Of a stretch of 64,000 bases of DNA, positions 357 through 17,541 are shown in pieces (position 1 is the first letter of the stretch; each line of letters begins with the position of its first letter). The notes beneath the pieces were generated by a model. It saw only the letters and a program-made list of their open reading frames with translations. It ran no database searches and had not been told where the DNA came from. The position numbers and the translations under genes were made by a program. The stretch comes from Medakamo hakoo (Eukaryota; Chlorophyta; Trebouxiophyceae; Coccomyxaceae). The DNA lies in contig CP089463.1 in assembly GCA_026636295.1 (NCBI GenBank), forward strand, positions 310,001-374,000. Reading direction: 5' to 3'.

Positions 357-368
357 AGAAAAAGCATG

Positions 369-1331
369 TCACAGCGAAAAGGGCCCTCCTGCATCCCACT
401 TCACCCCGAGCTCCGACAGCTCCGCGTGCGCGGCCGCGTAGTCTTTGCGGAAGGACGCCTCGTCCTTTGCATACCGTGCAGTGTACGGAAAGAACTCCGG
501 GTCGTCGCCGAGCACCGCGTCCGTCGCGAGGACGACCAGGTCGGGGTCGGTGGATTCCCCGCCATTGCCCGCGGCACGCAGCACGGCCTGGAAGTACTCC
601 GACCCGTTGAACGTCAGGTAGTCGGGCGTCCAGGGCGACCCGCCAGGCGCGCCGCGCGGCGGGTGCGCTGTGTACTTTGTGACGGCCCGCCCAAACCCGC
701 TGCGGTCCGGCTTGCACCTCCCCAGCGTGTGCGCGCCCGACAGGGCGACCAGGGCGCGGGGCGTCAGCCCCAGGCGGTCGGTGAAGACGGCCCGCAGGTG
801 GTCTGCCGGGCCGCTGGCGCCGCCCGGGTACGGCGGCCCACCGTGCGGCAGCCGCCCCTCGGGCACGAGCGATGCCGGCCCGGGCGCGTCAGCGCGCCCG
901 TACCGCATGGGGATGCGCGGCCCGCCGGACGCTTCGATGGCAGTGGCGCCGCCGCACTGAATGAGGTCGGCGAAGCTGACGCGCGGGTGGGCGGCCGCAA
1001 TGGGCGCGAGGAGCGTCAGCGCGCTGCCAGCCAGCCCAGCGTTGGCCGCGTGCGCCTGCTCATTCGCAAACCGGATGGACCCGTTGGCCCCGCCCGCGCC
1101 TGGGAAACCCGCCGTGGACTTGCAATCGAAGGTGCCCGCGTCGTGCCAGGCCAACCGGACGAGGACGGGCGCGCAGCCTTCGGTTTTCACAAGGGACTCG
1201 ATGTCCGCGCGCGCGGCGGCGAGGTCGGCCTTGTCCGTCGTGCGCGGCGGGCCCGCCCAGTTGAAAGGCGTGGAGGCGTCGGCGCCGTCAGTGACGCCGC
1301 CGCCGGGCAAGTAGGAGAGGCAGGCGCCCAT
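369..1331 (-). CDS. Ascorbate-peroxidase-like class I haem peroxidase with N-terminal acylation signal
   Basis: Single exon, 320 aa. Family hallmarks are all visible: distal pocket R59, W62, H63 (in 'VRLAWHDAGTF'), proximal H201 in 'LSGAHTLGR', an APX-like proximal Trp (W234, 'PWTPDYLTF'), the Asp of the His-Asp-Trp triad (D271, 'LATDAVL'), and a C-terminus like ascorbate peroxidases ('AHAELSELGV'). It should reduce H2O2 with ascorbate or a similar small donor. I chose the ATG at 1331 rather than the in-frame ATG at 1370 because it gives the N-terminus 'MGACLSYL': Gly2 for N-myristoylation and Cys4 for palmitoylation. That suggests a membrane-anchored enzyme rather than a soluble stromal one. 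A second peroxidase, more divergent, lies at the other end of the window. Confidence 0.9.
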   Translation of the reverse strand: MGACLSYLPGGGVTDGADASTPFNWAGPPRTTDKADLAAARADIESLVKTEGCAPVLVRLAWHDAGTFDCKSTAGFPGAGGANGSIRFANEQAHAANAGLAGSALTLLAPIAAAHPRVSFADLIQCGGATAIEASGGPRIPMRYGRADAPGPASLVPEGRLPHGGPPYPGGASGPADHLRAVFTDRLGLTPRALVALSGAHTLGRCKPDRSGFGRAVTKYTAHPPRGAPGGSPWTPDYLTFNGSEYFQAVLRAAGNGGESTDPDLVVLATDAVLGDDPEFFPYTARYAKDEASFRKDYAAAHAELSELGVKWDAGGPFSL

Positions 1332-1637
1332 GGTCGAGGGGAGGGTGCTGGAAGGAGGGATGGGATGCAAGAGTGGTGGGGAGGTGGGGGGGACGGCAAG
1401 AAAAGGAGACGGCCAGCGCGTTCTTTCCTTCCTCCGACAAGCGTGCTAGTGGCCGGACGCGTCAAGATCCGTGCTTGACGACGGAGAAGCCGCTCACCTG
1501 CGGTGCGTCGCGGCCGCGCGCACGAGCAAACGGCAAAGCATGTCTGAGGGCATGCGTTTTGCTCAACCCACGGGACAAAGCATTTTTTCTCAACACACGC
1601 GGAACACACGCTCACGCCCCCCACACCTCCAACATTT
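1332..1637. other. Intergenic stretch between two minus-strand genes
   Basis: This 306-bp gap holds the upstream region of the peroxidase gene and the 3' flank of the acetyltransferase gene. No supported ORF, RNA gene or repeat was seen. An in-frame ATG for the peroxidase exists at 1370 but is less likely than 1331. Confidence 0.5.
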
Positions 1638-2695
1638 CTACGCGTCTGCACACAACAGGATCTCCTTGCCTGCAGAGTGATTTGAGGGAGGGGGGCGTGA
1701 GTGAAAAAGCACGAGGAGAGAGACAGGGGCGACGGCCTCGCCCGTATCCATCCGCCTCTGAAAAAAAAAAGACTCACCCAGCGTCGCCGCGCCCGCCACG
1801 CCGCCCGCCACGTCGCACTCCCTCCCGTGTTCGCCCTCCACCTCCCTGTACCCGCAACTGGCGTACAGCGCGCGCGCCGGCCCATTGGACGCCGCCACGG
1901 ACGCGTACAGGCGGGCGGCGCCCCACTGCTGGGCCGCAAAACGCGCCGCCTCAGCCATCAGTGCCGCGCCGACGCCTTTCCGCCGGGCGTCGGGCGAGAC
2001 GGCCACGTTGAGGACGGCGGCGGCGGCTGCATCTTGCGCGGGAACGCCGCGCGGGTGAGCACCGCCCGCCGACGCGGGCGGGCGCACGTCCAGCGCGCCC
2101 AGGATGGCGGGCGACGCGGAAGGCAGCGCACCCCCAGCACCAGCGGCGCACTCGGCCGCGACAAGGCACGCGCACTCCGGGACGGGGCTGCCGGCCGTCC
2201 GTGCCCGCAGCGACCGGGCTTCCTGGTCGCGAAACTGCTTCTTGTAGGACGAGGCGAACCGGCCGCCTCCACCGGGCTGGTCCTGTGTTGGTGGGTGGTG
2301 GTGGTGTGTGGGGTGGAGACGGGATGGGGTGGTGTGTGGGGTGGGAAAGTCCCGGGATGGAGAGGGTCGAGGCGGCGCGCGCGCGTCGTTGCGCTAGCCT
2401 TTTTTTTCTTCGTCCGTCCAGCCCACAAGCCACACACCTCGTAGTACGCCTCCGCTCTCAGCGCAGCCACGGCCTCAAACTCGTCCTCCAGGGCCAGGCG
2501 GACGACGAGGCCGGGCGGGCTGGTGGAGGAGGAGGACGAGGCCGCGTCGGGCGTCGCAAATTCTGGCGCGGCGAGCGCGGAAAGGCGCAGCACACGGGGT
2601 GCCGGGCGTGGAGTGACGGGTCGGACGCTGGCTGGGAGGGGCACACGAGGCCGCGGCCCTGACTGGCAGGCGGGCGGGGTGGCCCGGAGGAGCAT
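1638..2695 (-). CDS. Plastid-type GNAT N-acetyltransferase (RimI-like), three exons
   Basis: Exons 2695-2438, 2282-1778 and 1669-1638 join in phase (donors GTGTGT and GTGAGT, acceptors CAG) to give 264 aa. The first ~55 residues are rich in Arg, Ser, Pro and Ala with few acids, as in a chloroplast transit peptide. The GNAT fold follows: a beta strand at 'LVVRLALEDEFEAVAAL', then 'VLNVAVSPDARRKGVGAALM', which holds the acetyl-CoA loop (R-R-K-G-V-G-A), and the terminal 'ALYASCGYREVE' strand-helix. Plant plastids carry GNATs that acetylate protein N-termini and lysines, so this may be one of them; the substrate is not readable. The last exon encodes only ten residues ('KEILLCADA'), and the phase match confirms it. 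A TTTTTTTTTT run just inside intron 2 recurs in other introns here. Confidence 0.85.
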
Positions 2696-3035
2696 GGCTG
2701 TCGTCCGTGCGGGGCGGTGTGGTGGCCAAGCCGAAGAAAGTGTTTTTGGGCGACCTCTGACCTCCAGCAGCAAGAGTCACGACCTCTCTCACCCTCGTCG
2801 CACAAATTTAACAGCGGCACGCATCATCTCCCTTCCCCTCCCCCTTTCTAGTGTTGCGCTCTCGCCTCCCAACAATCTTTTACTTCTGACGGTGGGCGGG
2901 CTCGGGAGAGGGAACGGAGGGAGGGAGAGACTGCGCTCTCGCCCGCCTCCCCCCCTGTCTCCCGCCTCTCCCTCTCACCCCTCGGCAAACGCGACGCGGG
3001 ACGGGTTGTGGGCGCGCGGTGTGGCCAGCGCCTCC
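2696..3035. promoter_or_regulatory. Divergent intergenic region (acetyltransferase / small gene)
   Basis: This 340-bp spacer lies between the ATGs of the minus-strand acetyltransferase and a plus-strand small gene, so it should carry both promoters. It contains the only AT-rich pocket nearby (around 'caaatttaacag', 2811-2822) and CT-rich stretches. No TATA box or known element could be identified. Confidence 0.4.
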
Positions 3036-3558
3036 ATGGCAGCGGCAACGGCGGCACCCAACGGAGAGAAGCAGGACGGCGAGGCGGCGGTGGCTTGTTT
3101 GGCCGAGCCGGGCGAGCCGGCACTGGCCGCGCAGGCTTCGCTGGACGCGGAGAAGGTGCGACGGGCGGTGCGCAGGGCGATCAACAGGCGGCCAGAGAGG
3201 GTAGGGGCGTCGTCAGCTGCGGGACGTGTGTGGGAAGGGCGGTGGGGACGGGTGAGGCGCAAGGTTTTTTTTGTTCTACTGTCGGCTAGAAAAGCCTCAC
3301 GGGCTAGTCGCGCGCGCCGCGCGCCGCCCGACACAAAAAAAAAACGCACCTGCGGGCCCGGGCACCCATTCTTTCCCAGGCGCGTCACTCCGCCGCTTGG
3401 CTGCGGGCATGTCGGCCGCGAGGTCGGGTTCCGTGCTCAAGCGGCGGCGGTGCAGCTTGAGCGAGTCGACGCGGGCGAGGCGCGACGGCGGCGCAACGCA
3501 TGCGGCCGACTCTTTCGACAGGCGGCGGAGGCGGAGGGGCATGGCTTTCTTCGTGTGA
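3036..3558 (+). CDS. Small hypothetical protein, probably two exons (junction unresolved)
   Basis: The first exon starts at ATG 3036 and encodes an Ala-rich then basic segment ('LDAEKVRRAVRRAINRRPER'). Candidate donors lie at 3201 (GTAGGG), 3226 (GTGTGT) and 3252 (GTGAGG). A good acceptor (TTTCCCAG) ends at 3379. The downstream frame with strong GC3 bias ends at TGA 3556-3558 and reads '...SVLKRRRCSLSESTRARR' to 'GMAFFV'. Only donor 3226 joins ATG 3036 to that frame. The product would be about 120 aa, very basic, with an Arg-rich tail like a nuclear or nucleolar localisation signal. I do not recognise the family. The gene is likely real; its exact junction is not certain. Confidence 0.35.
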
Positions 3559-3839
3559 TGCGCTCCTCTATCTGGAACTCAATGCAGTTCTCCACTGGCG
3601 GAGGTTGAAAGTGGGCTGAGGGCCAGGGAGCGTGGTGGCGGCGTTCCCTGCCGACGGTCGGTCCAAGAACGAGGCAGTGCAGGCCGAAACGTGCGGACGC
3701 TCACTTTCCCGACAGGTCGCTTGGCACTGCTCCATTTTTTCGGCGGAAAAAAAGGAAGCAAAAAACGGCACGGGGCGCCTCCCGCGCCTGCATTCTTGAT
3801 CCAGATCGGCGCGTGAGGCGCGACCTTGACGCCCAACAG

Positions 3840-4853
3840 ATGTCAGACGCGCCCTCCGCCGCCGCCGCTGCGGCTGCCGCCTTTGCCGCGTTCGATTGGG
3901 AGGGCGACGCGCGGTGGGCGACCTACTCGTCTTCGGTGGAAGTGGCCAACCCCGCCACTTGGCCCCTGGTCAAAGCCAAGTGGTTCAAGCGGGAGGTTGA
4001 CCCGGACCTGGATGTGTCGCCCTTCCGGCCGGCAGCGGCGGCGGCGCCAAAAGTGGAGGAACGGCCGCCACCCCCGCCGCCGCCGCCCAGGCCGCGACCG
4101 ACGGCGGCCACGACCGCCTCCACGACAGCCGGCCTCGCCCGCCTGGCGTCCGCGGGCCCAGGCGCGCTCGCCCTCTTCGCCCTCAACCTGGCCGTCTTCT
4201 GGGCCGCCCTGGCGTTCGCGTCCCCGGTCCACGCCCGCCCGCGGGCGTGGCGCCGCTTTGCGCTGCTCGCGACGGCCGCGCACTGCGCCCGCGCCGTCCA
4301 ACGCCTGGGCACCCCACCCCTGCCGTCCTCGTCGGATCCGCGGAGCGTCATGGCCCTGCTCGCATGGGCGTCGTCTGCGGCCCGCACGTCGGACGGGGCA
4401 CTCATTGCCTTTTTATTTGTAGCCAGCCGGGCGGGCGCGCCGCCACCGCCGGCTGCCCTGCCTGCTGCGCTGCTGGCCGGCGCCCAAGCCCTGGAGTGGG
4501 GCGTGTCCACAGCAGGCGACGCTGCCCCACGGTGGGCCGTGCGGGCGCGGACGGCGGTCGCGGCCCGGGCGGCCGCCCTGGCCCGCGCGGCCGCGGGCGC
4601 GGAACTGGCGACGGGCGCGCTCTTGGTGGCGGGGATCTTCTCGGGCCGGGGCGGGCTGTGGGCGGCCCTGCTGTTTTGGCGGACGTACGTGCCGTTCCGC
4701 CTGAATTCGCCGGACGGGCGGCACCACGCGGGTGTGCTGGCTGCGGCGGCTCGAGTGGGCGCGGGCCTCGCGGCGCGGGCGGGCGCGGGCGGGGTGAGCG
4801 GCTGGTTGCGAGCGTTGGAAGGGCGGTGGCGTGGGCTGGCCGGGGCGGAGTGA
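3840..4853 (+). CDS. Multi-pass membrane protein with N-terminal 'FDWEGDARW' motif
   Basis: Single exon, 337 aa from the ATG at 3840 (an in-frame ATG at 3813 is possible). An Ala-rich start leads into a soluble conserved-looking segment ('FDWEGDARWATY...LVKAKWFKREVDPDLDV', residues ~20-60), then a Pro-rich linker and a membrane region. The membrane region has about four hydrophobic helices (for example 'ALALFALNLAVFWAALAF' and 'GALLVAGIFSGRGGLWAALL'), closing with 'WRTYVPFRLNSPDGRHHAG'. The arrangement, a short soluble head then clustered TM helices and a basic end, resembles the TMEM33/Pom33 type of ER and nuclear-pore membrane proteins. That is only an architectural guess; I cannot confirm the family. 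Confidence 0.6.
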   Translation: MSDAPSAAAAAAAAFAAFDWEGDARWATYSSSVEVANPATWPLVKAKWFKREVDPDLDVSPFRPAAAAAPKVEERPPPPPPPPRPRPTAATTASTTAGLARLASAGPGALALFALNLAVFWAALAFASPVHARPRAWRRFALLATAAHCARAVQRLGTPPLPSSSDPRSVMALLAWASSAARTSDGALIAFLFVASRAGAPPPPAALPAALLAGAQALEWGVSTAGDAAPRWAVRARTAVAARAAALARAAAGAELATGALLVAGIFSGRGGLWAALLFWRTYVPFRLNSPDGRHHAGVLAAAARVGAGLAARAGAGGVSGWLRALEGRWRGLAGAE

Positions 4854-4989
4854 CAACAGAGGGCTGTGTAGAAGGGACAGGGCTGGGTGCGCGACGGCCT
4901 CGCCGCACGGTGCACGACGGGGCGGGAGGAGGCAGATGGCAGCAGGAGGAGGCAGATGGAGGAGGGCAGGCCGCAGGCCCCCCCCTCTG

Positions 4990-5807
4990 CCAGCCAGGTC
5001 GCGGGTGGAGGGTCGGGACGTTGCCCGTGGCGGCAGGCGGCCGGGGAGACGCGCGGGCGCGCCCCGCGGCCGTGGAGAGGGGGTGGTTGTCAGAGAACCG
5101 TTGGGGCGCGCCGCCGCTGGCCGGCGGCGCGCCCCGGCGCGCGCCGCCTGCCCCGGCGTCGACGCCGTCCGACGGAGCACTGCCGCCCTCCTCTCCGTCC
5201 TCCACGTCCCAGTCGTCCTCGTCCCAGCCATCGCCGTCGCCGTCGCCGATGACCAGGCCCTCGCGTACATGGGCGGCGGCGACTTTGTTTTGTCGGCCGA
5301 CGTGCGCTCGGCGGCGGTGTCCTATTGCTTGCCCAGCCGCCTTTGTCGCGGCCGCTTCCGCCACGGCGGCTGGTGCAGGGGCCTGATCACGGAGGTTATT
5401 CACGCCCTGAACGAGCCCGCCCCACAGGCTGTCCCTTTTGTCGCAGGGCAAAGGGAACGAAAGAAAAAAAATCGTGTGGAGTCGACCGGCGACCAAGGTC
5501 CGGCAGGGGCCCGCCGCCACGCCGCCTGGCTGAGGCCGTACACCGCACACACGCCCCCGGAATGAAGCCCGAATAGATCTGAGTCTAGGCGCGCCCCCGC
5601 CTGGCGTGATGGTGAGGGTGTGTGCCGTCGGCGGGCTGCTACGGCGGCATTGGTGCTCCGCGCGCAAGCTCGAGCCTGCGCGACCACCTGGCCGGGAGGG
5701 CCCTCCCCACCCCGCCGGGGCTGCAAGGCTTGACGCCAGCGGCCGTGGCAGCCGCGGCGGTGTTGACGCGTGTGAGCACACGGCCCCCCGTCAATTTTGA
5801 GACATGA
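4990..5807. other. Probable spliced gene, strand and structure ambiguous
   Basis: Both strands show coding-like composition. On the minus strand a frame from about 5440 down to 5000 starts 'DSLWGGLVQGVNNLRDQ' and runs into an acidic 'DGWDEDDWDVEDGEEGG' segment; it would need an upstream exon near 5600-5790. On the plus strand a short frame ends at TGA 5805-5807 ('...VLTRVSTRPPVNFET') with very high GC3, and another segment around 5260-5430 is also coding-like. Poly-T/poly-A runs near 5461-5470 resemble those inside other introns of this window. I could not make either model close with consistent phase, so no product is named. Confidence 0.3.
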
Positions 5808-6461
5808 GGCGTCCCTGGGCGACGTCGGCGCGGGGTGTCCCCGCCCGGAGAGGGGTGAGGAAAAGGGAAGTGGGCCGCGCCGAGCGCGCTCGCGCGGACC
5901 TCACTCCTCTCACCCTACACCCCGCCTCTCCCTTTGCCCGCTGTCGCGTTCGCTTTCGCGCTCGGTCCGGCCGCCGCCACCCGCGCCCGCCTGATTGAGC
6001 CGGTGGTCGTCCGACACCCTCCTGCGCGCTCCGACTCTGTGTGGGTCGGAGGGCGCACCTGTCCTGTTCGCGTTTCCGTCGGTAAAGACGGGCGTGCGCC
6101 CGCGTCTCGCCGTTGCCTTTGCGGCGGACTGACGCCGCCGGCCTGTGGACGCCTACTCCTCGTCGTCTGTTATACAAGGTACGCAGAAGAGCGGGGGAGT
6201 GCGGCGGCGGGGAACGAGGCGAGGTGTCGCGCCCGCGTGTGCGCGGGGGTGGAGGGGGGGGGGGCGGGGCGACCCGCGCACGCACACGCGTCCAGTTTCG
6301 CGGCGCCGCCCCGGCGCACGGCGCGCCGTCGCGGCCTGTGGCGGCCTCGGCTTGTTGCCAGCGGTCGCCTCGAGGTTGGACGCGGATGCCGAGGCGGCGG
6401 GCATGCCCTCACCCGCCCCGCACCCCATCCCCACCGAAACCCTCTTCCAGCCTGACGCGCC
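5808..6461 (+). promoter_or_regulatory. Upstream region of the USP-AP2 gene with a possible 5' UTR intron
   Basis: This 654-bp stretch lies before ATG 6462. It contains a strong donor-like 'ACAAG|GTACGC' (intron start 6179) and an acceptor-like 'CTCTTCCAG' ending at 6450, 12 bp before the ATG, so a 5' UTR intron of about 270 bp is plausible. A G-run lies near 6252-6262. No other gene is supported here. Confidence 0.35.
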
Positions 6462-9400
6462 ATGGCCGCGCCCCGCTCGGACGCGCCCTCCCGCGCCGTC
6501 GGCGTGCCCAACCTAGGCATGACCTGCTGGATGGCGTCCATCATCCAGATCTTGTACGCCTTCCCCGGCCTGCGTCGCGCGGTGCGTGCCGCGGCGGCGG
6601 CCGCATTGCAGCGTGAGTGGTTCCCTGGGCAGCCCCCCTCCCTGCTCGTCGCGCTGGACACCCTGTTTCGCGCGATGGACACCCTGTTTCGCGCGATGGA
6701 CGAGGACGACGTGAAAGCTGTCCCTGTGTACCTGGTCTCGGCCTTTTTTGATGCCCTGTCCTCGCACGTCGGGGGCCTCGCCCGGGGCGAAATGGCAGAC
6801 GCGGCGGACGTGTACCCGAACCTGGTGAACGCCTTGTTCGAGGAGGCGGTCAGCGTCGAGCAGTTCGACGTGGCGGCGCTCCTGGCGAACCGGCTCAAGC
6901 TTGCCCTTGTGGGACACCCCATCCGCCGCCTGGAGGACGCTGACGTCTTGATCAACTTGGACGTGTCTGTGGAAGAGGGCGTGCCGTGCGTGGTGCCCAT
7001 CTCCCTGGAGCGCGTGGTAATGGGGTCCTTCTGCTCCGTCCCCATGGAGATGGTTGTGACCCTGCGCGACGGCCGCCAAGCCGTCCTCCGCCTGTTTGGC
7101 TTCATCGTCTACTCGGAGGCGAAACGTCACTACGAAGCCTACGTGTGCTTGAAGGGCGGGACTTGGTGGCGCTGCAACGACGCCAAGGATGTCTGCGTCT
7201 GGGAGGGCGACGTGTCGGAGTTTTTTGAGGGTGAAGGTTTTACCGTGCGTTTGGCTTTCTACGAGTGGGTCGGCGACGCGGCCGTGCCCGCGGCGGGCGA
7301 CGCCGCCGCGGCCTCGACCCGCCCGTCCTCTCCCCCGGTGGCCGAATCGGACGCGCCGGGCGCGGGGTCGGACGCGGGCCCGTCCCGCTCGCCGCCGACG
7401 CCTGGGTCGGCCGAACTGGGTGCGGGTGCCGCCGGCCCGCCGCCCCCGCCCGCCCCTCCCGCCCGCGCGGCTGCCGCCGCCGCTGGACCGCCGACTGCGC
7501 CGCCGTCTGGGCCCGCGCCTGAAGACGCCGGCGCGGTGGGTGGGATGGGCGCGGCACCGGCGGGCGCGGCCGCGGACGCGGCCGGCGCTCCGCCGCCGCT
7601 CGCGGTCGCGGCGGGCGCGGCCGCGGCCGCTCCGTCCGAAACAGCGGCCGCCGGCCTGCCGCCCGTCCAGGGTGGCCGGGCTGGCCTTCGGCCGAAGGAG
7701 CTTCTGCGCCGTCCTGCCCGAGTCTCCTCCCCGCCGCCGTCCGCCAAGAACTGGCCGCCCGCGGCGGGCGGGCCACCGCCGCCCGCCGCGGCTGACGGCG
7801 GGCAGGGCGCGCCGCCGCCCCGCCCCCGCCTCTCGGCTGGCCCTGCCGCGGCGGGCGTGGACGCTGCGGCCGGCGCGCCGCCGCCGCCCGCCGCGGGTCG
7901 CGCCGGGCGGGGCGCCCCTGCCGCCGGCCCGCCGCCCCTGCCCGCCCCGCCCGCCCCCGCGCCCGGCGCGGCTGACGGCGGGCAGGGCGCGCCGCCGCCC
8001 CGCACGAGCGGCCCGAAGAGCGCGTATCGCGGCGTGAGCTGGGACACGTCCACGGACATGTGGCGCGCCCGGATTACGCGGCACAACGTGGATCACGACC
8101 TGGGATGCTTCCCCGACGAGGCCGCGGCCGCGCGTGCGTACAACGCGGCGGCGATCAAACTCGGCTGTCCGGCCACCTGGCTCAACGAGGTCCCGGACGA
8201 TCCCGCCGGGCCGCCGTCTGTGCCGTCGTCTGCGCCGTCGTCTGAAGGGGCGAGCGGCCCGAAGAGCGCGTATCGCGGCGTGAGCTGGGACGAGTCCTCG
8301 GGCATGTGGCGCGCCCGGATCAAAGTGGGCAGCAAGAGGCTCGTCCTAGGCCGCTTCCCCGACGAGGCCGCGGCCGCGCGTGCGTACAACGCCAAGGCGC
8401 TCGAACTCGGCTGCCCGGCCGCCTGGCTCAACGAGGTCCCGGACGATCCCGCCGGGCCGCCGTCTGTGCCGTTGTCTGCGCCGTCGTCTGATGGCGCCGC
8501 CGCGGCGGGCGGCGCGGGCGCGACCGCGCCGGGCGTCGGTGACGCGGGCGGCGCGACGGGCGGGCCACCGCCGCCCGGCGCGGCTGACGGCGGGCAGGGC
8601 GCGCCGCCGCCCCGCCCCCGCCTCTCGGCTGGCCCTGCCGCGGCGGGCGTGGACGCTGCGGCGGGCGGGGTGGGCCTGGCCCCGCCGGGCGTCGGTGACG
8701 CGGGCGGCGCGACGGGCGGGCCACCGCCGCCCGGCGCGGCTGACGGCGGGCAGGGCGCGCCGCCGCCCCGCCCCCGCCTCTCGGCTGGCCCTGCCGCGGC
8801 GGGCGTGGACGCTGCGGCGGGCGGGGTGGGCCTGGCCCCGCCGGGCGTCGGTGACGCGGGCGGCGCGACGGGCGGGCCACCGCCGCCCGGCGCGGCTGAC
8901 GGCGGGCAGGGCGCGCCGCCGCCCCGCCCCCGCCTCTCGGCTGGCCCTGCCGCGGCGGGCGTGGACGCTGCGGCGGGCGGGGTGGGCCTGGCCCCGCCGG
9001 GCGTCGGTGACGCGGGCGGCGCGACGGGCGGGCCACCGCCGCCCGGAGCGGCTGACGGCGGGCAGGGCGCGCCGCCGCCCCGCCCCCGCCTCTCGGCTGG
9101 CCCTGCCGCGGCGGGCGTGGACGCTGCGGCGGGCGGGGTGGGCCTGGCCCCGCCGGGCGTCGGTGACGCGGGCGGCGCGACGGGCGGGCCACCGCCGCCC
9201 GGCGCGGCTGACGGCGGGCAGGGCGCGCCGCCGCCCCGCCCCCGCCTCTCGGCTGGCCCTGCCGCGGCGGGCGTGGACGCTGCGGCGGGCGGGGTGGGCC
9301 TGGCCCCGCCGGGCGTCGGTGACGCGGGCGGCGCGACGGGCGGGCCACCGCCGCCCGGGGGCGCGGCGGGCGCGGCCGTCGCGCCTTCCGACGAAGGCCC

Positions 9401-10565
9401 GACGACCACGTACGTCGGCGTGAGCTGGTGCGCGGGCAAGAGCAAGTGGAAGGCCCGGATCCGGAAGGACAACAAGCCTTGCCACCTGGGCTACTTCGAT
9501 TCCGAGGTCCAGGCCGCGGAAGCGTACGACGAGGCGGAGCGCTGCAGGGCGAAAGAACACCGCCGGGCCGCGGTCGTCAACTCCCCGCGCACGGACCTTG
9601 GCGAGCGGCAGGCCGTAAAAAGAGGGTGCGGCGGGCAGCCGCCCCCGCCCGCCCCTCCCGCCCCCGCGCCTGCCGCTGCTGCCGGGCCGCCGTCTGCGCT
9701 GCCGTCTGCGCCGCCGCCGCCCGCGGGCGGGGCGGGCCCGGCCCGCCCGCGAGCGTCGCGGCCGCGGCCGCGGTCGCGGCCGCGGCCGCGCGCGGCCGGC
9801 ACAGCCGCCCCGCTTGCGCCACTGGCCGCCGACGTCCTGCGCGCCATCAAAGCCAAAGCCAAGCAGGCCGGCACAGAGGCCGACGCTGACGCCAGGGCGG
9901 CCGCGGCTGACGGCGGGCTGGGCGCTCCGCCGCCCCCCCCCGACAAGCCGTACGTCGGCGTGCAGCAGCCTGTTGGGGGCTTGTGGCCCGCCTCCATCTG
10001 GTGCGGCGAGACCATCCCGCTGGGCTACTACCAGTTCGAGTCCTCGGCCGCGAAGGCGTTCGACAGCGCGGCGCGCGCCCTGCGCGCCCTGGGCGTCCGG
10101 GCCAGCAGGTCGCTAAATTTTCCGCTCGCGGACGAGATCAAGGCCGACGCCGCCGCCGTCGCCAAGGCCGCGGCCGACGTCGCGTCCAACGCTGACCGCG
10201 CCGCCGACGCAGTCGACCGGGCCCGGGAAGCCGCCGCCGCCGCCGCCGCCGCCCAATCCGAAGGGGACGCCGCCCTCGCCGCCGCCCTGGCCGCCGCCGC
10301 CGCCGACGTCGTCGCCGCCGCCGCCGCTCGCGCCGTCGCCCACGCCGCCGTCGCCGCCGCCGCTCGCGCCGTCGCCCACGCCGCCGTCGCCGCCGCCGCC
10401 CGAGCCGACGGGGAGGCGGCCCTCGCCGCCGACCGGGGCCACATGGCCGCCGCCTCCGACGCCGTCGAAACCGCATGGGCCGCCGTTCGGGCCGCACGGG
10501 CCGCCTGCAATGCACTTCGGTCCGCTGCCGCCGCAGAAGCGAAACACACGCTCCGCCCGCCCTGA
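6462..10565 (+). CDS. USP-type deubiquitinase-like domain fused to four AP2-like DNA-binding domains and an Ala-rich helix
   Basis: 1367 aa, one open frame. Residues ~14-265 form a short USP (peptidase C19) domain. The Cys box 'NLGMTCWMASIIQILYAFPG' has catalytic Cys22, but the usual oxyanion Asn ('GNTC') is Met. The His box 'YSEAKRHYEAYV' keeps the His near residue 223, and the Asp follows in 'WWRCNDAKDV'. A Pro/Ala-rich linker follows. AP2 domains lie near 516-577 and 597-660 ('SAYRGVSWD' ... 'MWRARI' ... 'LGRFPDEAAAARAYN'), near 979-1043 ('TYVGVSW' ... 'KWKARIRKDN'), and a degenerate one near 1161-1225. Between domains 2 and 3 sits a 156-bp minisatellite. The last ~140 residues are almost all Ala with periodic charges, likely a long helix. 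Inference: a nuclear chromatin or repair factor that brings deubiquitinase activity, or ubiquitin binding, to DNA. The frame stops at TGA 10563-10565, but the same frame continues at once into an EEP domain. Confidence 0.8.
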   Translation: MAAPRSDAPSRAVGVPNLGMTCWMASIIQILYAFPGLRRAVRAAAAAALQREWFPGQPPSLLVALDTLFRAMDTLFRAMDEDDVKAVPVYLVSAFFDALSSHVGGLARGEMADAADVYPNLVNALFEEAVSVEQFDVAALLANRLKLALVGHPIRRLEDADVLINLDVSVEEGVPCVVPISLERVVMGSFCSVPMEMVVTLRDGRQAVLRLFGFIVYSEAKRHYEAYVCLKGGTWWRCNDAKDVCVWEGDVSEFFEGEGFTVRLAFYEWVGDAAVPAAGDAAAASTRPSSPPVAESDAPGAGSDAGPSRSPPTPGSAELGAGAAGPPPPPAPPARAAAAAAGPPTAPPSGPAPEDAGAVGGMGAAPAGAAADAAGAPPPLAVAAGAAAAAPSETAAAGLPPVQGGRAGLRPKELLRRPARVSSPPPSAKNWPPAAGGPPPPAAADGGQGAPPPRPRLSAGPAAAGVDAAAGAPPPPAAGRAGRGAPAAGPPPLPAPPAPAPGAADGGQGAPPPRTSGPKSAYRGVSWDTSTDMWRARITRHNVDHDLGCFPDEAAAARAYNAAAIKLGCPATWLNEVPDDPAGPPSVPSSAPSSEGASGPKSAYRGVSWDESSGMWRARIKVGSKRLVLGRFPDEAAAARAYNAKALELGCPAAWLNEVPDDPAGPPSVPLSAPSSDGAAAAGGAGATAPGVGDAGGATGGPPPPGAADGGQGAPPPRPRLSAGPAAAGVDAAAGGVGLAPPGVGDAGGATGGPPPPGAADGGQGAPPPRPRLSAGPAAAGVDAAAGGVGLAPPGVGDAGGATGGPPPPGAADGGQGAPPPRPRLSAGPAAAGVDAAAGGVGLAPPGVGDAGGATGGPPPPGAADGGQGAPPPRPRLSAGPAAAGVDAAAGGVGLAPPGVGDAGGATGGPPPPGAADGGQGAPPPRPRLSAGPAAAGVDAAAGGVGLAPPGVGDAGGATGGPPPPGGAAGAAVAPSDEGPTTTYVGVSWCAGKSKWKARIRKDNKPCHLGYFDSEVQAAEAYDEAERCRAKEHRRAAVVNSPRTDLGERQAVKRGCGGQPPPPAPPAPAPAAAAGPPSALPSAPPPPAGGAGPARPRASRPRPRSRPRPRAAGTAAPLAPLAADVLRAIKAKAKQAGTEADADARAAAADGGLGAPPPPPDKPYVGVQQPVGGLWPASIWCGETIPLGYYQFESSAAKAFDSAARALRALGVRASRSLNFPLADEIKADAAAVAKAAADVASNADRAADAVDRAREAAAAAAAAQSEGDAALAAALAAAAADVVAAAAARAVAHAAVAAAARAVAHAAVAAAARADGEAALAADRGHMAAASDAVETAWAAVRAARAACNALRSAAAAEAKHTLRPP
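6657..6698 (+). repeat. 21-bp perfect tandem duplication inside the USP domain
   Basis: Two identical head-to-tail 21-bp copies (6657-6677, 6678-6698) encode 'DTLFRAM' twice, in frame. The sequence then continues with a third GAC. It is a recent in-frame slippage or duplication in a region where USP domains tolerate insertions. Confidence 0.9.
8005..8490 (+). repeat. 246-bp direct duplication carrying AP2 domains 1 and 2
   Basis: The two units, offset by 246 bp (82 codons), each hold one AP2 domain plus the linker 'LNEVPDDPAGPPSVP'. Their ends are nearly identical at DNA level while the middle (DNA-contacting strand residues) has diverged: 'TSTDMWRARITRHNVDHDLG' against 'ESSGMWRARIKVGSKRLVLG'. 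This pattern fits duplication followed by diversification of binding specificity. Confidence 0.85.
8515..9357 (+). repeat. 156-bp in-frame minisatellite, about five and a half copies
   Basis: The landmark 'tgggcctggc' recurs at 8671, 8827, 8983, 9139 and 9295, exactly 156 bp apart, with a partial first copy from about 8515. Each unit encodes 52 residues of Pro/Gly/Ala/Asp ('GGPPPPGAADGGQGAPPPRP', then 'RLSAGPAAAGVDAAAG'). Copies are almost identical (for example one ggcgcg to ggagcg change near 9050), so the array is young or homogenised. Older, diverged half-units lie at about 7785-7875 and 7970-8000. Assembly may have collapsed or expanded the array. Confidence 0.95.
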
Positions 10566-11765
10566 CGCCCGTTGCCCGCCCCGCTGGAGGAGAAGAAGTA
10601 CCTGGTCGACCTCCCCGCCGGCGTCGACCCCTGTCTGCACCCGGCCGTCGACCTCAAACCGCCCGTGGAGCTGCGTTTCGCGACCCTCAACGTCAACTCG
10701 CTGACCCGTTTTGGTAGCGCCGTCGAGGCCGTCCTGCGCGCCCTGCGCCTCGACTGGAGCTTGGCCGCGCTCGCCCACGCCCACGGCTTGCACGGCATGT
10801 GCATCCAGGAGCACCATCTGAAGCGCACGGACGACGTCAAGAAGGCGTTCGGCATGTCTAGACGGTGGCGGTGGCACATCGTCGTCGCGTTCGCCACCCG
10901 CTCGCGCGACGGGCGCGAGGTGGTCGGCGGCGTACGGTACGCGGGCGTCGCCGTCATCACGCCCTGGAAGCCGCTTGAAGTGTGGGTCACCCTGGACGAC
11001 ATCTTACGTCTGGGCGACGTGTGGGATGACGTGGTTGACGGCGAGGGTAAGATCGGCGTTTTAAAACGCCCGCCCGCCCGCCTAGTGTTGCCCGCCCGCC
11101 CCTGCCCCCCCCCCCCCCCCTCGCCCCCCCTACCCCCCCCCCCCCTCACACACACCCCGCCACCGCCTCCCTCCCCAGGCCGCTTTGCGGCTGTCCTGAC
11201 CGTCCACAACGTCGTCCTGGTGTCTTTCTACGCGCCTTTCGTTGACTTCAGGGAACGGGGCGGTGGGGGGTGCAAGACAAACGCGGCGTTCGGGGAAGAA
11301 GTGCGGCGCTGGGAAGGCGCCATTGCCGTCCTGGTCCGGCGGCTCAAACTGCTGCACGAAGCAACGAATGCGCCCATCATCGTCGGCGCCGACTGGAATC
11401 ACGGCTCCCGCATCGACATCCTGGAGGAGATGTTGCGCGACGCCGGGCTGTTTGTGCCCCACATGAGGGGCACACTTGAGAACCGTGAACCCTTCACGCT
11501 GGGCATTGATTTTTTCGCAGTCTCGGCGGATAGGCTGCACGGCTGCGTCACACGCGAGCGCATCGACCCGGAAAGGGGCGGGAGCGACCACTTGGCGGTT
11601 GTGGTGGGCGTGGCCTTGCCGCCCGACCTCCCGCGACTGGACCCGGTGGAGCCCCCCGACGATGGGTGGGGGGACGAGAGTGGGGATGAGAGCGAAGGGG
11701 GTGAGAATGGAGGGCGACCCGACAAGAAGAGGCAGAGACGTATCACTGAGTATTTTAAAAAGTAG
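10566..11765 (+). CDS. EEP-superfamily nuclease domain with C-terminal PIP-box-like peptide; no own start codon before the domain
   Basis: The frame is open directly after the TGA of the USP-AP2 ORF and has no ATG before the first EEP strand. An intron (GTAAGA, 11047-11178, 132 bp, C-rich, CAG acceptor) is in frame. The endonuclease/exonuclease/phosphatase motifs are 'RFATLNVNSL', 'GMCIQEHHLK' (metal-binding Glu), 'IIVGADWNHG' (Asp, Asn), 'GIDFFAVSADR' (Asp) and 'GSDHLAVV' (catalytic Asp-His). The C-terminus is acidic and then basic, ending 'KKRQRRITEYFKK', which fits the PCNA-binding consensus Q-x-x-I-x-x-[FY]-[FY]. It resembles AP-endonuclease or LINE-type EEP domains, but no reverse transcriptase follows. 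It is probably expressed with the upstream ORF by splicing or read-through, or an exon with its ATG is unrecognised. Confidence 0.75.
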   Translation, partial: RPLPAPLEEKKYLVDLPAGVDPCLHPAVDLKPPVELRFATLNVNSLTRFGSAVEAVLRALRLDWSLAALAHAHGLHGMCIQEHHLKRTDDVKKAFGMSRRWRWHIVVAFATRSRDGREVVGGVRYAGVAVITPWKPLEVWVTLDDILRLGDVWDDVVDGEGKIGVLKRPPARLVLPARPCPPPPPSPPLPPPPLTHTPPPPPSPGRFAAVLTVHNVVLVSFYAPFVDFRERGGGGCKTNAAFGEEVRRWEGAIAVLVRRLKLLHEATNAPIIVGADWNHGSRIDILEEMLRDAGLFVPHMRGTLENREPFTLGIDFFAVSADRLHGCVTRERIDPERGGSDHLAVVVGVALPPDLPRLDPVEPPDDGWGDESGDESEGGENGGRPDKKRQRRITEYFKK

Positions 11766-11886
11766 TCACACAACACCTGCGCACGTCGTCTTGAGGCCGG
11801 CGTCCAATGGGCGGGGCCTGGGCTGGAGGAGGTGCGTGGGGGGCGGGCGCGGCCTCTTGCGCGGGGGTTTCCCAACACACACCACC

Positions 11887-13567
11887 TCACTCCCACTCCG
11901 CCCCCACCGCTGCCCGCCCCGCCGCCGACTTCAACAGCACCGCCCCCACGCCCGCCACAGCGCTCACCGCCGCCAGCAAGCCGTACGGGAAGTCGGGCGG
12001 CGGCAGGTCGACGGAGGGGGAGGTGGGGAGGACGCGCGACCCCCGCGCGTCGGCGCCCACCTCCAGCACGAGCGCGCCATCGACGCGTGCGGCCACGGCA
12101 CCCCGCCCGCCCCCGCCCCGCGCCTGGGGTTACGAGCGTGCGTGCAAAGGCAGCCGTGCATTGCCTGTGTGTGGAGAGAGGGAGGGAGGGAGGGAGGGGG
12201 GAGGGAGGGAGCCAAGGCCAACCGCCCACTGGCGGCGGGGCGCGGGCCGCCTCCCCCGCCGCCCCCGACCCGCTGGCGGCCGGCCCGCCCGCGCCCTCGT
12301 CCAGCGGCCGCCCGCCGCGCGCGCGCACACAAACGACGACACCCGGCGCCGGGGGAGCGCGCGCACGACGGGCTCGGCTGCGCTGCCGGGCCACAGGGGC
12401 GCCACGCCGGCCTCAGCCGCCTCGTCCACCGCAAACGGGCGGGGCGGCAGGCCGCCCGTGGCCGCGAGGGCGGCCCGCAGGGGGCTGACGCGCGCGCGCG
12501 TGCGCGCCGCGGCCGCGACCGCGGCCAACAGCTCCTCTTTCCCCACGCCGTCCGCGGCGATGGCGACCTCGGACCAGGTGGACGGCAGGGGAGGGCCGCG
12601 CCCCCGGCCCCCGCGGCGGCCGGCGGGCTGGGCGCGCCGCCCGCCCAGGAGGCCGGCCGGGCCCGCCGCGACGGCCGCGAGGATGGTCGCGGCCGCGGCG
12701 CAGCGCGAAGGAAACGCGCAGGCCGCGCTCCTGCCGTACGTCGCGTCCAGGAACAGGGTGTTGATGTGTTGGGCCGACGGCGACGACGCGCCCAGGACGG
12801 CGGTGACGGGTATCTGAGAGAGAGGGCGGAGAGGCGGGCGGTGTGAGGGGGGGGGCAGCCGCGAAAAGCATGGGTGGGTGGGAAAGAAAAAACACTCAAC
12901 CAACCTGGGCCAGGAGCCCGCGCAGCGCCGCCGCCTCAAACCGGCAGTCGCCCGTGTGCAGGACGGTGCCGCAGGCCGGGGAGCGCACCAGGAACATGAG
13001 GGAGCCCTGCAGAGGTTGTGGGTGGCGGCGGTGCGGAGGGGCGGGAGGTTGAGAGTTTTCGGACAGGCACCTGTCGCGCGCGCCGCGGACGGAAAAGAAA
13101 AAAAACGACGCCCGCCACCCTCCCACCCAACCAGCACGCACCACGCAGTGGTTGGCCGGTAGGACGTGCACTTCAGCCAGGACGCCGTCGCCGTCATCCG
13201 AGCCTCCAGCACCGTCGTCCAAGCGGCGTTTGCGCGGCCGCATGCGCAGGCGGTCGCCCGGCCCGACGATGACCAGGCGGTCGCCCAGGCGGCCACCATC
13301 CTTGAACATGGCGTTCAAGTGGACGGCCGCCGCGGATGAACAGTGGATGCGCGACCCGGGGCCGTCGGCCGCCCAGTCCGGTTTCAAGCCGGCCGTGTGG
13401 TCGGTGTGCGAGTGGGAGAGCAGGCGCGCGACGACCGTCGCGTCCGAGGTGGAGGGCGGGTCCCCGTTGCCACCGCCACTACTGCGCGTCACTTGCGGGG
13501 CGGAGGTCCAAATGTCGACGCCCAGGACCCGGCCGCGGCCGAGGGGGAGGAAGGCGCCGTTCCCCAT
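11887..13567 (-). CDS. SNM1/DCLRE1-family metallo-beta-lactamase nuclease, four exons
   Basis: Exons 13567-13142, 13006-12905, 12813-12223 and 12123-11887 are all phase 0 (donors GTGCGT, GTTGGT, GTTGGC; acceptors CAG) and give 451 aa. The HxHxDH motif is 'LSHSHTDHTAGL' (H52, H54, D56, H57). The SNM1 signature follows as 'PANHCVGSLMFLV' (H140) and 'VLHTGDCRFE' (D162), then 'LFLDATYG' (D199). The family comprises 5'-exonucleases (Apollo, Artemis, Pso2) that work in interstrand crosslink repair and at DNA ends. The usual 'NHCPGS' has Val for Pro. The C-terminal exon adds a hydrophobic segment ('YGLLAAVSAVAGVGAVLL') that could be a tail anchor. Intron 3 holds a GGGA repeat on the plus strand. Confidence 0.85.
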
Positions 13568-13751
13568 TGTGTGTGTGAAAGACACACACTCACAAAACAC
13601 ACAAAACAACAACACACACAAAACTCGGCGGCGCCACACCCACACCCTACCCGCCCGCCCCAGCCGCTAGGCCGACTCACACAGCTAGGCCCTGGGACCG
13701 GCGGAAAAAAGCCTCGACGCTCGGCGGTTCAGACAGGCACACCCCCTGCAA
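13568..13751. promoter_or_regulatory. Shared upstream region of DCLRE1-like and zinc-finger genes
   Basis: 184 bp separates the two divergent ATGs. It is rich in CA/ACA repeats ('cacacactcacaaaacacac' near 13580-13600). No TATA box was seen. It is presumably a bidirectional promoter. Confidence 0.45.
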
Positions 13752-16077
13752 ATGTCGCCGGCGGCCCGCGGCGGCGACGCCCCGCCGGGCCCCTCCGGCT
13801 CTAAGGGTAAAGCCGCCGCCGCCGCGCCCGACAGCTCGGGCGGCCGCCGCAACGATTCGGAGCGCTTCTTCTGCCCGTACCCGGGCTGCCAGCGCTCCTT
13901 CGCCGAGCTCTGGTGCGTTTTGTGCTTTGCCGGCGCCCGGCAAGTCGTTTTTTCCTGGCTGCCGGCGTTTGCGGCCCCGCACACGCGCCCACCCCCTCCC
14001 GCCACCCTCCCCGCGCCCGGAGGGGGTAGACGATGGACTGGCACTTGCACAGGGCCAGTAACCCCACCCCTCTCCACTCGACTCCACCACCCAACAGGCG
14101 CTTGAAAGTGCACTACCGTGCGCCGCCCGACGTGCGCGGGTCTGGCAAGGAGCGCGGCCACGGCTGCGAGCTCCAGTGGTGCCCCAAATGTGGCCGCGAG
14201 CTGCGGGCGGGGCGCCACCACGTCGGCTGCTTCGCCGGGCGGTCCGCACCTCGCCAGGCGGCCAAGCGGTTCCGGCTGGTGAGTCTTCTTTGGGGAGGAG
14301 TGTGTTGGTGAACGCTCCCCCGCATGCGGGGAGCAGGGAGCGTGCGCCCGTCAATGCGGCGGTGGCCCACGCCCGGCGTGCCTCGGCCAGGCACGCCGGC
14401 ATCGGTGGCGGCGTGTGTGCGTGGGTGGGCGGGGGTGGGAGGGCGCCCGGCGCCGTCCCCCCACCCTGAGCGCTCGCGTTTCGTGTGCCGCGGCGCGGCG
14501 AGCAAAGCAGAGGGGGGGCCCACCGAGAGGCTGACCCACGCCCGGCCCTGCCCCCTGCCTGGAAAAGCCGGCGAAAAGCGCCCGGCGGCAAGGCCTTGCC
14601 GCCCCTCCCATGCCCCGCAACCCCTGTGCCAAGGTCGGCCGGACCCGCCTGCCCACGCTGGGCAGGCCGGATCCATCCAAGTCCGCGCGCGCCCGGCCTC
14701 CGCGCGGGCCCCCCAACAAACATTTCCGGTCGCGCGCGCGCCGCCGCAAAACCTCTCACCATCCTCTCTTCCACCATCCCCACGCCACAACAGGCCCAAG
14801 GCGCGGCCGCCGCGCCCGGCGCGCCGCCCGCGCATGGTGGGGGAGCGCCGCCTGCCGCGCCTGGCGGCGCGGCGCCCCCACGCAAGCGCGCGGCCCGGTC
14901 CCGCAGCGGCAGTGCCGCGGCCGCGGCCGCGGCCGCCGCCCCGGCGCGCGCGCCGCCGCCCGGCGGCCCGCCGCCCGGCGCCTTTGTCGGTGGCCTGGGC
15001 GCCGTGGCGCCGCACCCGCCGGCCTTGCACATGGACGCCGTCCCGCCGCTGGGCATGCACCCGGGCGACCACCTGCAGTGGGCGGGCGGCGGCGGGGTGG
15101 CGGCGCAGCACGCGCCGCCGCCACCGCCCCCGCACCACCACCACCACCACCACCACAGCCACGACCCGCTCGCCGGCGTCGTGGGCGAGCACGACCTCTT
15201 CCTCCGCCCGCCCTCCCCGCCGCCCCTGCCGCCCGGTGAGGAAGCCCGGCCCATGCACCTGCTGTTCGACTTTTCGCTGTTCGACACGGACCGCCACCCG
15301 CCACCGCCGCCGGGGCCGTCCGGCCGCGCGCCGGGCGGCGACGGCGCTGCCACACCGGAAGGCGGCGGAGGCGGCGGCTCTGCTGGCGGCACGCCCGTCG
15401 CTTCCAAGCCCGTCCACACCGTGATGAGCAATGCGACGTCGTCGGCTGGTGGGGAGGGCGGCAACGGGGGCCCGCCGCCGGCCGCGCCGGCCGACCACCA
15501 CGACGGCGGCGGCCTCGCGCCCTGGGAGGACGCGGCGCACGGCGGCGACGATTACATCATGCAGATCATGTTTGGCGAGCCGGCCGCCGCGGTGCCGCGC
15601 CGGGTGACGGCGCACCTGCACGCCTGGGACGCGGCCGGCGACGACGGCGCGGACGGCGGCGTCGGGCTGGTCGGCGCCGGGTCGGCGCCGGGCGCGCCCG
15701 GCGCCGCGTTCCTCGGCGGCGGCGGCGCGGCCGCGCCGGCCGGCGCGGGCGCGGCGCTCGTGGGCGGCCCGGGCGGCCTGCGCCCGCGCGGCGCCCTGGA
15801 CGCGCTGCTGGGCCTGGACGGGCCCGGGCCTGTGCCACCCGCGACGACGACGGCGACGACCGCCACCGCGGCCGGCGCGCCCGCGCCCGTACCGGCCGCC
15901 GCCCACCCGCACGCCGCACCGCCGGGCGAGGGCGGCTACGCCGCCGCCGCGGCGGCCTTGGGCCCGGGCGGTTCCGCCGGCAACGAGCACGCCCGCATCT
16001 CCCTGCACCGCCTCGTGCCGCTGGGCGCCGCGGCGGGGGCGGGCGGGTCTGCGCCCGCGCCCGCGCCCGACGCCTGA
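13752..16077 (+). CDS. Zinc-finger protein with long disordered tail, three exons
   Basis: Exons 13752-13912, 14098-14278 and 14794-16077 give 541 aa (phases 2 then 0). Zinc ligands: a first C2H2-type finger 'FFCPYPGCQRSF' (C41, C46) with H59, and a second 'WCPKCGRELRAGRHHVGC' (C82, C85, H94/H95, C98) of CCHC type; both are split across introns. 'RGSGKERGHG' between them is basic. The 427-residue third exon is low complexity (Ala, Gly, Pro) with a run of eight His, an acidic patch with 'DYIMQIMFGE', and a conserved-looking end 'ARISLHRLVPLG'. It is likely a nuclear transcription regulator; the partner or target is unknown. Intron 2 (515 bp) is the longest seen here. Confidence 0.7.
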
Positions 16078-16621
16078 GAGCGTGTTTGTTTGCCTTGTTT
16101 TTTTTTCCTTCACGTCCCCCCCCTCTTTTTTTACAAATTTTTGATGCCATCACTACGAAGCGGGCTGTGTGTGCGTGTGTTTCATTTTTTTTCTACTTTT
16201 TTTCCCTCCCTTTTTGGTCGGTGGCAACGCATTTTCTCGGGACAGAAAGAGACCGATGGCAACGACAAAACCAAAAATCAAAAAACACAACGACAGAGCG
16301 CGTTCAGACGGAGATGGGATGGTTGGGAAACGAGAGAGAGAGGGGCCGGGGAAAGGGCGCGGCAGTGCGGGGGACGAGGGCTTTGCCTCCCGCTGCACTG
16401 CCGCGCGCACCGCGCTGCGCTTTACGCACTGAGATTGTCGCTTTTGCATGAAAAAAAACTGATGTCTCTGTCCTACACAAACAAAAAAGAGAAGGGGGGT
16501 GGATGGCGCGCCGCCCGCTCGCCCGCCCGCTTGCCCCTCCCGTTCCCGTTTTGCTGCGCGCGCACCATCAGCACGCACACACACACACTGCAAACCCGCC
16601 ACCCCCACCACCACACCCTCC
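16078..16621. other. Convergent 3' region with T-rich tracts
   Basis: This 544-bp gap lies between the zinc-finger stop and the stop of the next minus-strand gene. It is unusually AT-rich for this window, with several runs of T and A (16098-16130, 16186-16215, 16450-16490), as expected for 3' UTRs and poly(A) sites. It also holds a strong inverted repeat, listed separately. Confidence 0.5.
16357..16406. repeat. Perfect 11-bp inverted repeat (hairpin) in 3' region
   Basis: Arms 16357-16367 (gcgcggcagtg) and 16396-16406 (cactgccgcgc) are exact reverse complements around a 28-nt loop that can partly extend the stem (GGGGGACGAGG / CCTCCCGC). It lies in the convergent 3' gap, so it may shape a 3' UTR end or be a small structured RNA. 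No coding frame explains it. Confidence 0.6.
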
Positions 16622-16843
16622 TCACACGACTGGACGGCGGAACGGGTTCATCAGCACCGGCTCTTTCGCCGCCTGGCGTGGGGCAGCTAGAGCCATTGCT
16701 TGCGTGCGGGCAGCCCAGTCTTTGCGCAACGAGGGCGGGCGGGGCGAGGCCGCAGACTTCGCAAACCACACCGCAGTCGTGGCGGCAACGGCGGCGGCCA
16801 CGCCTTTAGCGACGGTGGTGGGGTCAACTTTAGCAGCGATCAT
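16622..16843 (-). CDS. Small single-TM protein, 73 aa
   Basis: An ATG at 16843 opens a 73-residue frame. 'TTVAKGVAAAVAATTAVWFA' forms one hydrophobic helix near the N-terminus. A basic, amphipathic remainder follows, ending 'AKEPVLMNPFRRPVV'. Size and layout (short lead, one TM, basic tail) resemble small mitochondrial inner-membrane subunits. I do not recognise the family. GC3 is high in this frame and the flanks fit a start and 3' end. Confidence 0.5.
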   Translation of the reverse strand: MIAAKVDPTTVAKGVAAAVAATTAVWFAKSAASPRPPSLRKDWAARTQAMALAAPRQAAKEPVLMNPFRRPVV

Positions 16844-16956
16844 GGCGTTGGGTTTGGTTGAACGGTGGGGGTTTGTGGACGCGGGCGAGCAGGACGGCGA
16901 CGGACAGACGAGAACGCGTTGTGAGGGGGGGGAGGGGGGCTAGCAACCCGCGCATG

Positions 16957-17160
16957 TTAGCCTCTGCCTCGCCTGCCCTCGCCCTCCACCACCCTCCCGC
17001 TCCCTTCGCCGCCGCCCTCCCGCCGGGCCTGGTCCGCCTGTGCCTCCCAGTACGCCTTCAGCGGCTGCGCAAAAAGGTAGTAGCCCGAGCTCACGCCCAC
17101 GCCGGCCGCCATGAGGATGTGCAGCGGGCGGCCGGCGCGTAAAGCCCGGCCCAGCGACAT
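16957..17160 (-). CDS. Small single-TM protein, 67 aa
   Basis: From ATG 17160: a basic lead ('MSLGRALRAGRPLHIL'), one TM helix ('MAAGVGVSSGYYLFAQPL'), then 'KAYWEAQADQARREG' and a Gly/Arg-rich end. The shape suits a small mitochondrial or plastid membrane subunit with its N-terminus on the matrix side. It lies 113 bp upstream of another tiny TM protein on the same strand and shares an upstream region with the organellar DNA polymerase gene. Family not recognised. Confidence 0.5.
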   Translation of the reverse strand: MSLGRALRAGRPLHILMAAGVGVSSGYYLFAQPLKAYWEAQADQARREGGGEGSGRVVEGEGRRGRG

Positions 17161-17541
17161 TTTCAAGGGGTGCCCGCCTGGCTTGGTGCGGGCAGGACAC
17201 GCTCGCCTTTGTGTGGGCGAAGTTTGGCGGGGAGCGAAAAGCGGGAACGCAGGCCGGCGACACGCCGCCCCGCCTGGACTCGGACGAACAAATTCGTCGG
17301 TCTGGGCCAGCGGCGCCAAAACGCCGTTCAGCAAAACACACGCGCTCCTCCCGCGGCGGCCCGCCCGCCTCGTGCACACACCACTCCGGCGGCAGGATAC
17401 ATGTCCTGCCCCGCACCGCCTCGCAGCAGCAGCTCCCTCCAGCCCCCTGCCGCGAGCGCGAGCGCGGCTGTGGGATTGGCAGGGCGCGCGACCACCTGCG
17501 CCGCGCCTCGACCGCTCGCCGCGCCGCACGCACTGGCCACC
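17161..17541. promoter_or_regulatory. Divergent upstream region of small TM protein and organellar polymerase
   Basis: 381 bp between divergent start codons. No repeat or recognisable element was seen. Both products look organellar, so shared regulation would make sense, but this is inference. Confidence 0.35.

Follow-up and report, generated by a model that had tools for sequence, protein, structure and literature searches.

A candidate DNA-tethered deubiquitinase with an AP2 array and a downstream EEP nuclease in one locus of Medakamo hakoo

The locus at positions 6462 to 11765 of the window (the whole 64,000-nucleotide stretch of DNA that was analyzed) appears from its sequence to be a new arrangement of known domains. 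One open reading frame, ORF A, encodes a USP/C19-like domain and a series of AP2-like domains that very probably belong to a single polypeptide, and an EEP nuclease with a PIP-box-like tail follows in the same frame beyond a single stop codon. The novelty lies in the combination, because the individual domains are all of known kinds. The most economical model would be a deubiquitinase tethered to DNA, with a PCNA-linked nuclease specified by a downstream part of the same transcript. We tentatively prefer the reading of the locus as one nuclear transcription unit that specifies the DNA-tethered deubiquitinase (ORF A) and the downstream EEP-PIP nuclease, at a confidence somewhat short of even. 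The features of ORF A are as follows.

6462..10565, + strand: ORF A (USP, AP2 array, Ala-rich stretch); ATG context GCCATGG; stop TGA at 10563-10565
6498..7280, + strand: USP/C19-like domain; Pfam UCH for the N-terminal half; Cys22 (6525), His223 (7128), Asp240 (7179)
7785..8006, + strand: linker with two copies of the AADGGQGAPPPR unit (repeat family D3), common to the linkers between AP2 domains
8016..8189, + strand: AP2-like domain 1; PF00847 E 5.5e-5
8262..8435, + strand: AP2-like domain 2; PF00847 E 9.8e-8
8498..9358, + strand: tandem array of a 156-bp (52-aa) unit, 5.5 copies, 98% matches, frame-preserving
9402..9572, + strand: AP2-like domain 3; PF00847 E 2.1e-6; phrog_99 HNH endonuclease E 8.3e-15
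9942..10118, + strand: AP2-like domain 4, weak; PF00847 E 0.056; alignable with the other three
10134..10562, + strand: Ala-rich stretch; GCC-type triplets and 36-bp repeats; helical only by composition
10563..10565, + strand: in-frame TGA stop separating the AP2 part from the EEP part; TGA ends other genes in the window

ORF A encodes 1367 aa and contains no stops in its own frame, compared with 14 and 24 in the other two forward frames. The length of the frame is weak evidence by itself because long open frames come cheaply at such a G+C content (68-81% per 2-kb block across the window, which is eukaryotic nuclear DNA), and the other strand elsewhere in the window holds an open frame of 1658 codons. 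Some weight is nevertheless carried by the length, since 300 mononucleotide shuffles of the ORF A DNA yielded at most 819 open codons. As judged from the sequence, the main evidence for ORF A is its domains rather than its frame length; the whole product passes the Pfam cut-offs for both UCH and AP2. The Ala-rich stretch noted in the initial sequence-only reading was found where the list places it.

The same reading had assigned a deubiquitinase-type Cys/His/Asp domain, and the Cys half of this assignment was upheld. The UCH profile (PF00443) matched the whole of ORF A with E 1e-8 and the isolated domain with E 1.1e-10, the latter scoring 42 bits against a cut-off of 23.9 with the catalytic Cys box included. 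The alignment pairs residues 13-131 with profile positions 1-108 of 254, i.e., the N-terminal half only, and profile searches with the second half of the domain alone gave no UCH or USP match. His223 and Asp240 are motif assignments without a profile score of their own. The His/Asp box, HYEAYVCLKGGTWWRCND, is the sole match of its pattern in the six frames of the window, and 0 of 100,000 shuffles of the USP domain matched this pattern, which was composed after seeing the sequence. The top solved-structure match was USP34 (E 0.0019, residues 10-44); the top matches were USP members, mostly aligned over the Cys box.

Searching PF00847 with the whole of ORF A gave E 1.6e-14 and 54.4 bits against a cut-off of 33.3, with three stretches passing; AP2 domains 1-4 cut out singly scored 23.8, 32.6, 28.4, and 14.2 bits, all below the 33.3-bit Pfam cut-off. 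The four AP2-like domains originally called therefore comprise three good ones and a fourth that is weak (the E of 0.056 listed above). Phage HNH-endonuclease families outscored Pfam AP2 on these domains (8007-8498 and 9393-9560): phrog_99 reached E 4e-29 with domains 1-2, and domain 3 scored 56.3 bits on this family versus 28.4 on Pfam AP2. When AP2-1 and AP2-2 were aligned, their differences fell mostly in a middle segment, which we take to be the location of AP2 strands 2 and 3. Silent changes numbered 8.2 over 62 sites and replacement changes 24.8 over 184, with no silent excess. The AP2 array of ORF A is a putative DNA-binding region.

Repeats in the linkers tie the USP domain to the AP2 array. 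The AADGGQGAPPPR unit (D3) occurs in eight copies, two before AP2-1, five in the array that separates AP2-2 from AP2-3, and one, slightly altered, before AP2-4. A second repeat unit is found after the USP domain (7430-7536) and again in the linker after AP2-3 (9629-9735), the two being in frame with each other. For the longer repeats, which extend from 7430 to 9941, every spacing is divisible by 3 (D3, 7/7; D4, 2/2; AP2 unit, 2/2). We restrict this frame rule to the longer repeats because the short G+C-rich families D10 and D12 in ORF A each break it once, with spacings of 1262 and 2147, respectively. The in-frame longer repeats are therefore best explained by one coding exon that was expanded in frame and that holds both USP and AP2. 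Within the 156-bp array, comparison of the five whole copies showed no more than one base of difference among copies 2-5, and 7 or 8 base differences for copy 1. The near identity of copies 2-5 points to a very recent frame-preserving expansion, and the copy number of the array may be variable or misassembled.

The surroundings of the locus were surveyed in the same window. Family matches were obtained for 9 of the 10 segments given, and the families in the window include DNA polymerase A, amidase, hexokinase, WDR3, yippee, methyltransferase, peroxidase, and VPS4, a combination suggestive of an alga. Open reading frames flanking the locus were collected from 1-6613 and 11402-19035 (ATG/GTG/TTG starts, at least 150 aa), giving 45 ORFs with a few at the edges left out; peroxidase was matched twice, separately, at 62750-63673 on the - strand and in one of these 45 ORFs. 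ARAGORN detected no tRNA in the window, and no Rfam family reached its gathering score there. TGTAA is the polyadenylation signal in core green algae. It occurs eight times in the window, counting both strands, and is absent from the 350-nt stretches 3' of the seven gene ends examined; one occurrence (43989) lies ~115 nt past another coding-like segment. At 56032-56193, an 81-bp unit is present in two tandem copies that are 95% alike. Downstream of ORF A and facing it, a gene with two apparent introns occupies ~12400-13570 on the - strand. It carries the motif SHSHTDHTAGL, presumably SNM1/Artemis-like, and matches Pfam Lactamase_B_2 with E 0.0037, under the cut-off of that family; it is a possible DNA-repair neighbor.

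The part of the locus beyond the ORF A stop contains the following features.

10584..11046, + strand: EEP exon 1 (LNVNS and QEHH motifs); CTG at 10584; first in-frame ATG at 10797
11047..11178, + strand: spliceosomal intron, 132 nt, AGG/GTAAGA ... CTCCCCAG/GCC, in-frame stops absent; supported by profile probability
11179..11765, + strand: EEP exon 2 (FYAP, GADWN, IDFF, and SDH motifs); acidic then basic tail; stop TAG
11733..11756, + strand: PIP-box-like motif QRRITEYF, two residues from the C-terminus

An EEP nuclease had been proposed here; its membership in the superfamily held after splicing, a 132-nt intron within 10572-11765 having been overlooked. The frame looked continuous because this intron is a multiple of three in length and lacks a stop. 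Removal of the GT-AG intron 11047-11178 raised the EEP profile probability from 6.1 to 92.8, the spliced protein aligning (hhalign, E 3.9e-7) over residues 33-305 with bacterial EEP proteins; the profile was built from 8 of 31 fetched loci that were picked by a motif filter. Among the controls, 15 of 15 shuffles gave a profile probability of 1.7 or less, the reversed protein 0.2, and the USP domain 0.1. The catalytic motifs N, QE, Y, D-x-N, D, and SDH are all present and in order. Pfam returned no match for the EEP part when unspliced, nor when spliced up to E 10, and there was no relevant match in solved structures and none in NCBIfam or PHROGs. Because the Pfam and solved-structure searches miss even the spliced protein, we regard it as a diverged member of the superfamily. 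On these profile and motif data, the EEP assignment is real, only after splicing. An alternative 171-nt intron starting at 11008 scored nearly as well (92.0 versus 92.8), so the choice of donor follows from the GTAAG consensus and not from the profile.

The proposed PCNA-box-like tail was confirmed as QRRITEYF at the C-terminus. It is the only Qxx[ILM]xx[FY][FY] sequence in the six frames of the window; of the 369 frames with 100 codons or more, one has such a motif at its C-terminus, and it fell within the last 14 residues in 4 of 100,000 shuffles. Any link to PCNA may run only through this PIP box of the EEP part, possibly a separate polypeptide. Zf-GRF and a PIP box distinguish APE2 from APE1, according to one report (PMC9900424). 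Zf-GRF is absent here because the protein ends in KK right after the PIP box, and a full APE2 orthologue was rejected on this ground. We also rejected the EEP part as the 5' end of a LINE or non-LTR retrotransposon, given that the PIP box and a stop follow it and that no RT family was found in the 45 flanking ORFs.

The manner in which the nuclease is joined to ORF A was considered in light of the intervening stop. As first reported, the EEP sequence continues the frame of ORF A after one stop; this stop is the TGA at 10563-10565, and the gap is 18 nt. TGA behaves as an ordinary stop in the genes of the window: it is the first stop reached, within 0 to 7 codons, after the VPS4, DNA polymerase A, yippee, and methyltransferase segments, and a reassigned TGA was accordingly rejected. 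No unusually stable RNA structure was found 3' of the TGA (z +1.26; 183 of 200 shuffles fold as well), which led us to reject a structured readthrough signal. With a normal stop and no such structure after it, efficient readthrough is not indicated. All five AG acceptors between 10566 and 10700 are of the GAG or AAG type, and none scores above 0.7, compared with 4.8 for the supported acceptor (ad hoc scale). Because no YAG acceptor is present there, we rejected an intron that would remove the TGA and end ahead of the EEP core. Good donors exist farther upstream, at 9626 and 10001 (6.0 each), and one acceptor of fair quality (4.2), at 10536, precedes the stop. No in-frame ATG occurs from 10566 to 10796, the first being at 10797, within the EEP domain. 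As it stands the EEP part lacks a normal start, since the stretch between stop and core provides neither a good acceptor nor an ATG. Leaky termination, CTG initiation, a sequence error, and early decay may each be compatible with this situation.

Several readings bear on this junction. Two independent neighboring genes, USP-AP2 and an EEP-PIP gene with an unrecognized start (non-AUG or in an upstream first exon), would account for the true stop between them; a common frame arises by chance in 1 of 3 cases, and CTG 10584 sits at the onset of the coding-like sequence. Against this reading, 18 nt are too little for a 3' UTR plus a promoter, and the missing ATG and acceptor leave the second gene without an evident beginning; we judge it unlikely. 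If instead the TGA came from one wrong base in the sequencing or assembly, or from a rare allele, the real gene would be one coding sequence of ~1,700 codons. The isolated stop with a shared frame on both sides fits this explanation, as does the richness of the surrounding stretch in G+C and repeats; TGA errors nonetheless seem to us quite improbable as the answer. One mRNA with a leaky TGA might also give two products, the USP-AP2 deubiquitinase and a ~1,700-residue form that adds the PCNA-binding EEP nuclease, a possibility that we consider rather doubtful; if true, it would place DNA targeting, ubiquitin removal, and strand cutting within one polypeptide. Overall, we lean toward the EEP part being carried on the same transcript as ORF A; that at least some of the product unites the two in one polypeptide, counting the case of a base error, is conceivable but less than probable.

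Under the preferred reading of one transcription unit, the ORF A product would be a deubiquitinase tethered to DNA: its AP2 array, on long linkers, would hold the USP domain at chromosomal sites and the USP domain, so held, would strip ubiquitin from proteins at those sites. The EEP-PIP part would be translated from this mRNA too, either through a leaky TGA or by starting at a non-AUG codon (e.g., CTG 10584), and would bring a PCNA-linked nuclease to the same process. The domains present make it fair to infer that the locus may encode a DNA-targeted ubiquitin/repair factor. Should the fusion hold in relatives, it would represent a deubiquitinase with its own DNA-binding address and an EEP-PIP nuclease in the same unit, through which chromatin or replication proteins at selected sites could be directly deubiquitinated.

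The main rival to this reading derives the locus from a selfish element, of which it would be a fragment, domesticated or in decay; in that element a deubiquitinase would protect the element's own proteins, AP2 domains would bind DNA, and an AP-type endonuclease would nick the target, in Helentron-like fashion. It ranks as the main rival because Helentrons pair a deubiquitinase with an AP endonuclease and because AP2 has roots in mobile elements. Helentron transposons are described as combining a deubiquitinase with a C-terminal AP-type endonuclease (PMC9741609, PMC4067079), Helentron-Rep-like sequences are reported in green and red algae (PMC4067079), plant AP2 domains are said to descend from mobile elements (PMC3537659), and an HNH-AP2 protein is noted in Symbiodinium (PMC12220804). 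The greater closeness of the AP2 domains to phage HNH families than to Pfam AP2 (the phrog_99 match to domains 1-2) also favors such an origin, and the stop ahead of an otherwise intact EEP part could reflect early decay. In opposition, a Pfam search at E 0.01 left the 45 flanking ORFs without a match to Rep, helicase, RT, integrase, or transposase, and the three matches from a crude scan for motifs over 1-17 kb were all unconvincing. The flanks 4001-6461 and 11766-14500 have no 16-mer in common, direct or inverted, and no second copy was present in the window (tblastn, E 1). A spliceosomal intron is present, and housekeeping genes lie farther along the window. We consider a mobile-element origin unlikely on balance; if correct, it would extend the pairing of deubiquitinase and AP-type endonuclease beyond Helentrons.

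Relatives were sought in several collections. Viral contigs yielded no relative with EEP and none with USP, and because the VPS4 of the window, used as a control, was equally without match, this absence is uninformative on eukaryotes. An alignment search with AP2, the only query used on bacterial genome contigs, recovered nine viral and two bacterial loci; by tblastn (E 0.1), AP2 matches were found in 10 of these 11 and USP or EEP in none. Inspection by eye of the ORF lists of L001, L003, and L009 revealed an HNH-AP2-like ORF in L001 and L003. Phages gave no USP match (tblastn), UCH was not found in 59 genomes of one bacterial phylum where controls were also without match, and NCBIfam provided no match. 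AlphaFold models made without an alignment were poor, with mean pLDDT values of 38 and 41. No recognizable description of a USP-AP2 protein was found in the open-licence PMC literature, a weak sign of novelty within that scope. PMC11321763 and PMC4883712, which contain both kinds of term, appear from their titles and the opening of their abstracts to deal with other matters than such a fusion.

The locus can be compared with four kinds of known systems. Like Helentrons, whose AP endonuclease is accompanied by OTU/VTD, it combines a deubiquitinase with a C-terminal AP-type endonuclease; unlike them, it has USP in place of OTU/VTD, possesses an AP2 array, shows no Rep/helicase in its two ORFs or the 45 flanking ORFs, and has no second copy in the window. 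It resembles APE2/APEX2 in that an EEP domain is followed by a PIP box and differs in missing Zf-GRF. The pattern YRGVSW...W.A.I...LG.F..E..AA.AY is shared with AP2 domains, including those of phage HNH endonucleases (phrog_99, as above), whereas ORF A is without an HNH domain by Pfam scan, in contrast to the phage HNH-AP2 endonucleases, and, in contrast to known AP2 proteins, a USP domain is joined here through repeat linkers. With USP (C19) deubiquitinases, the protein has in common the Cys box NLGMTCWMASIIQ, the UCH profile match, and, by motif assignment, a putative His/Asp box; it departs from them in its shortness (201 residues from Cys to His), in a C-terminal half too diverged to score, and in the AP2 domains attached to it.
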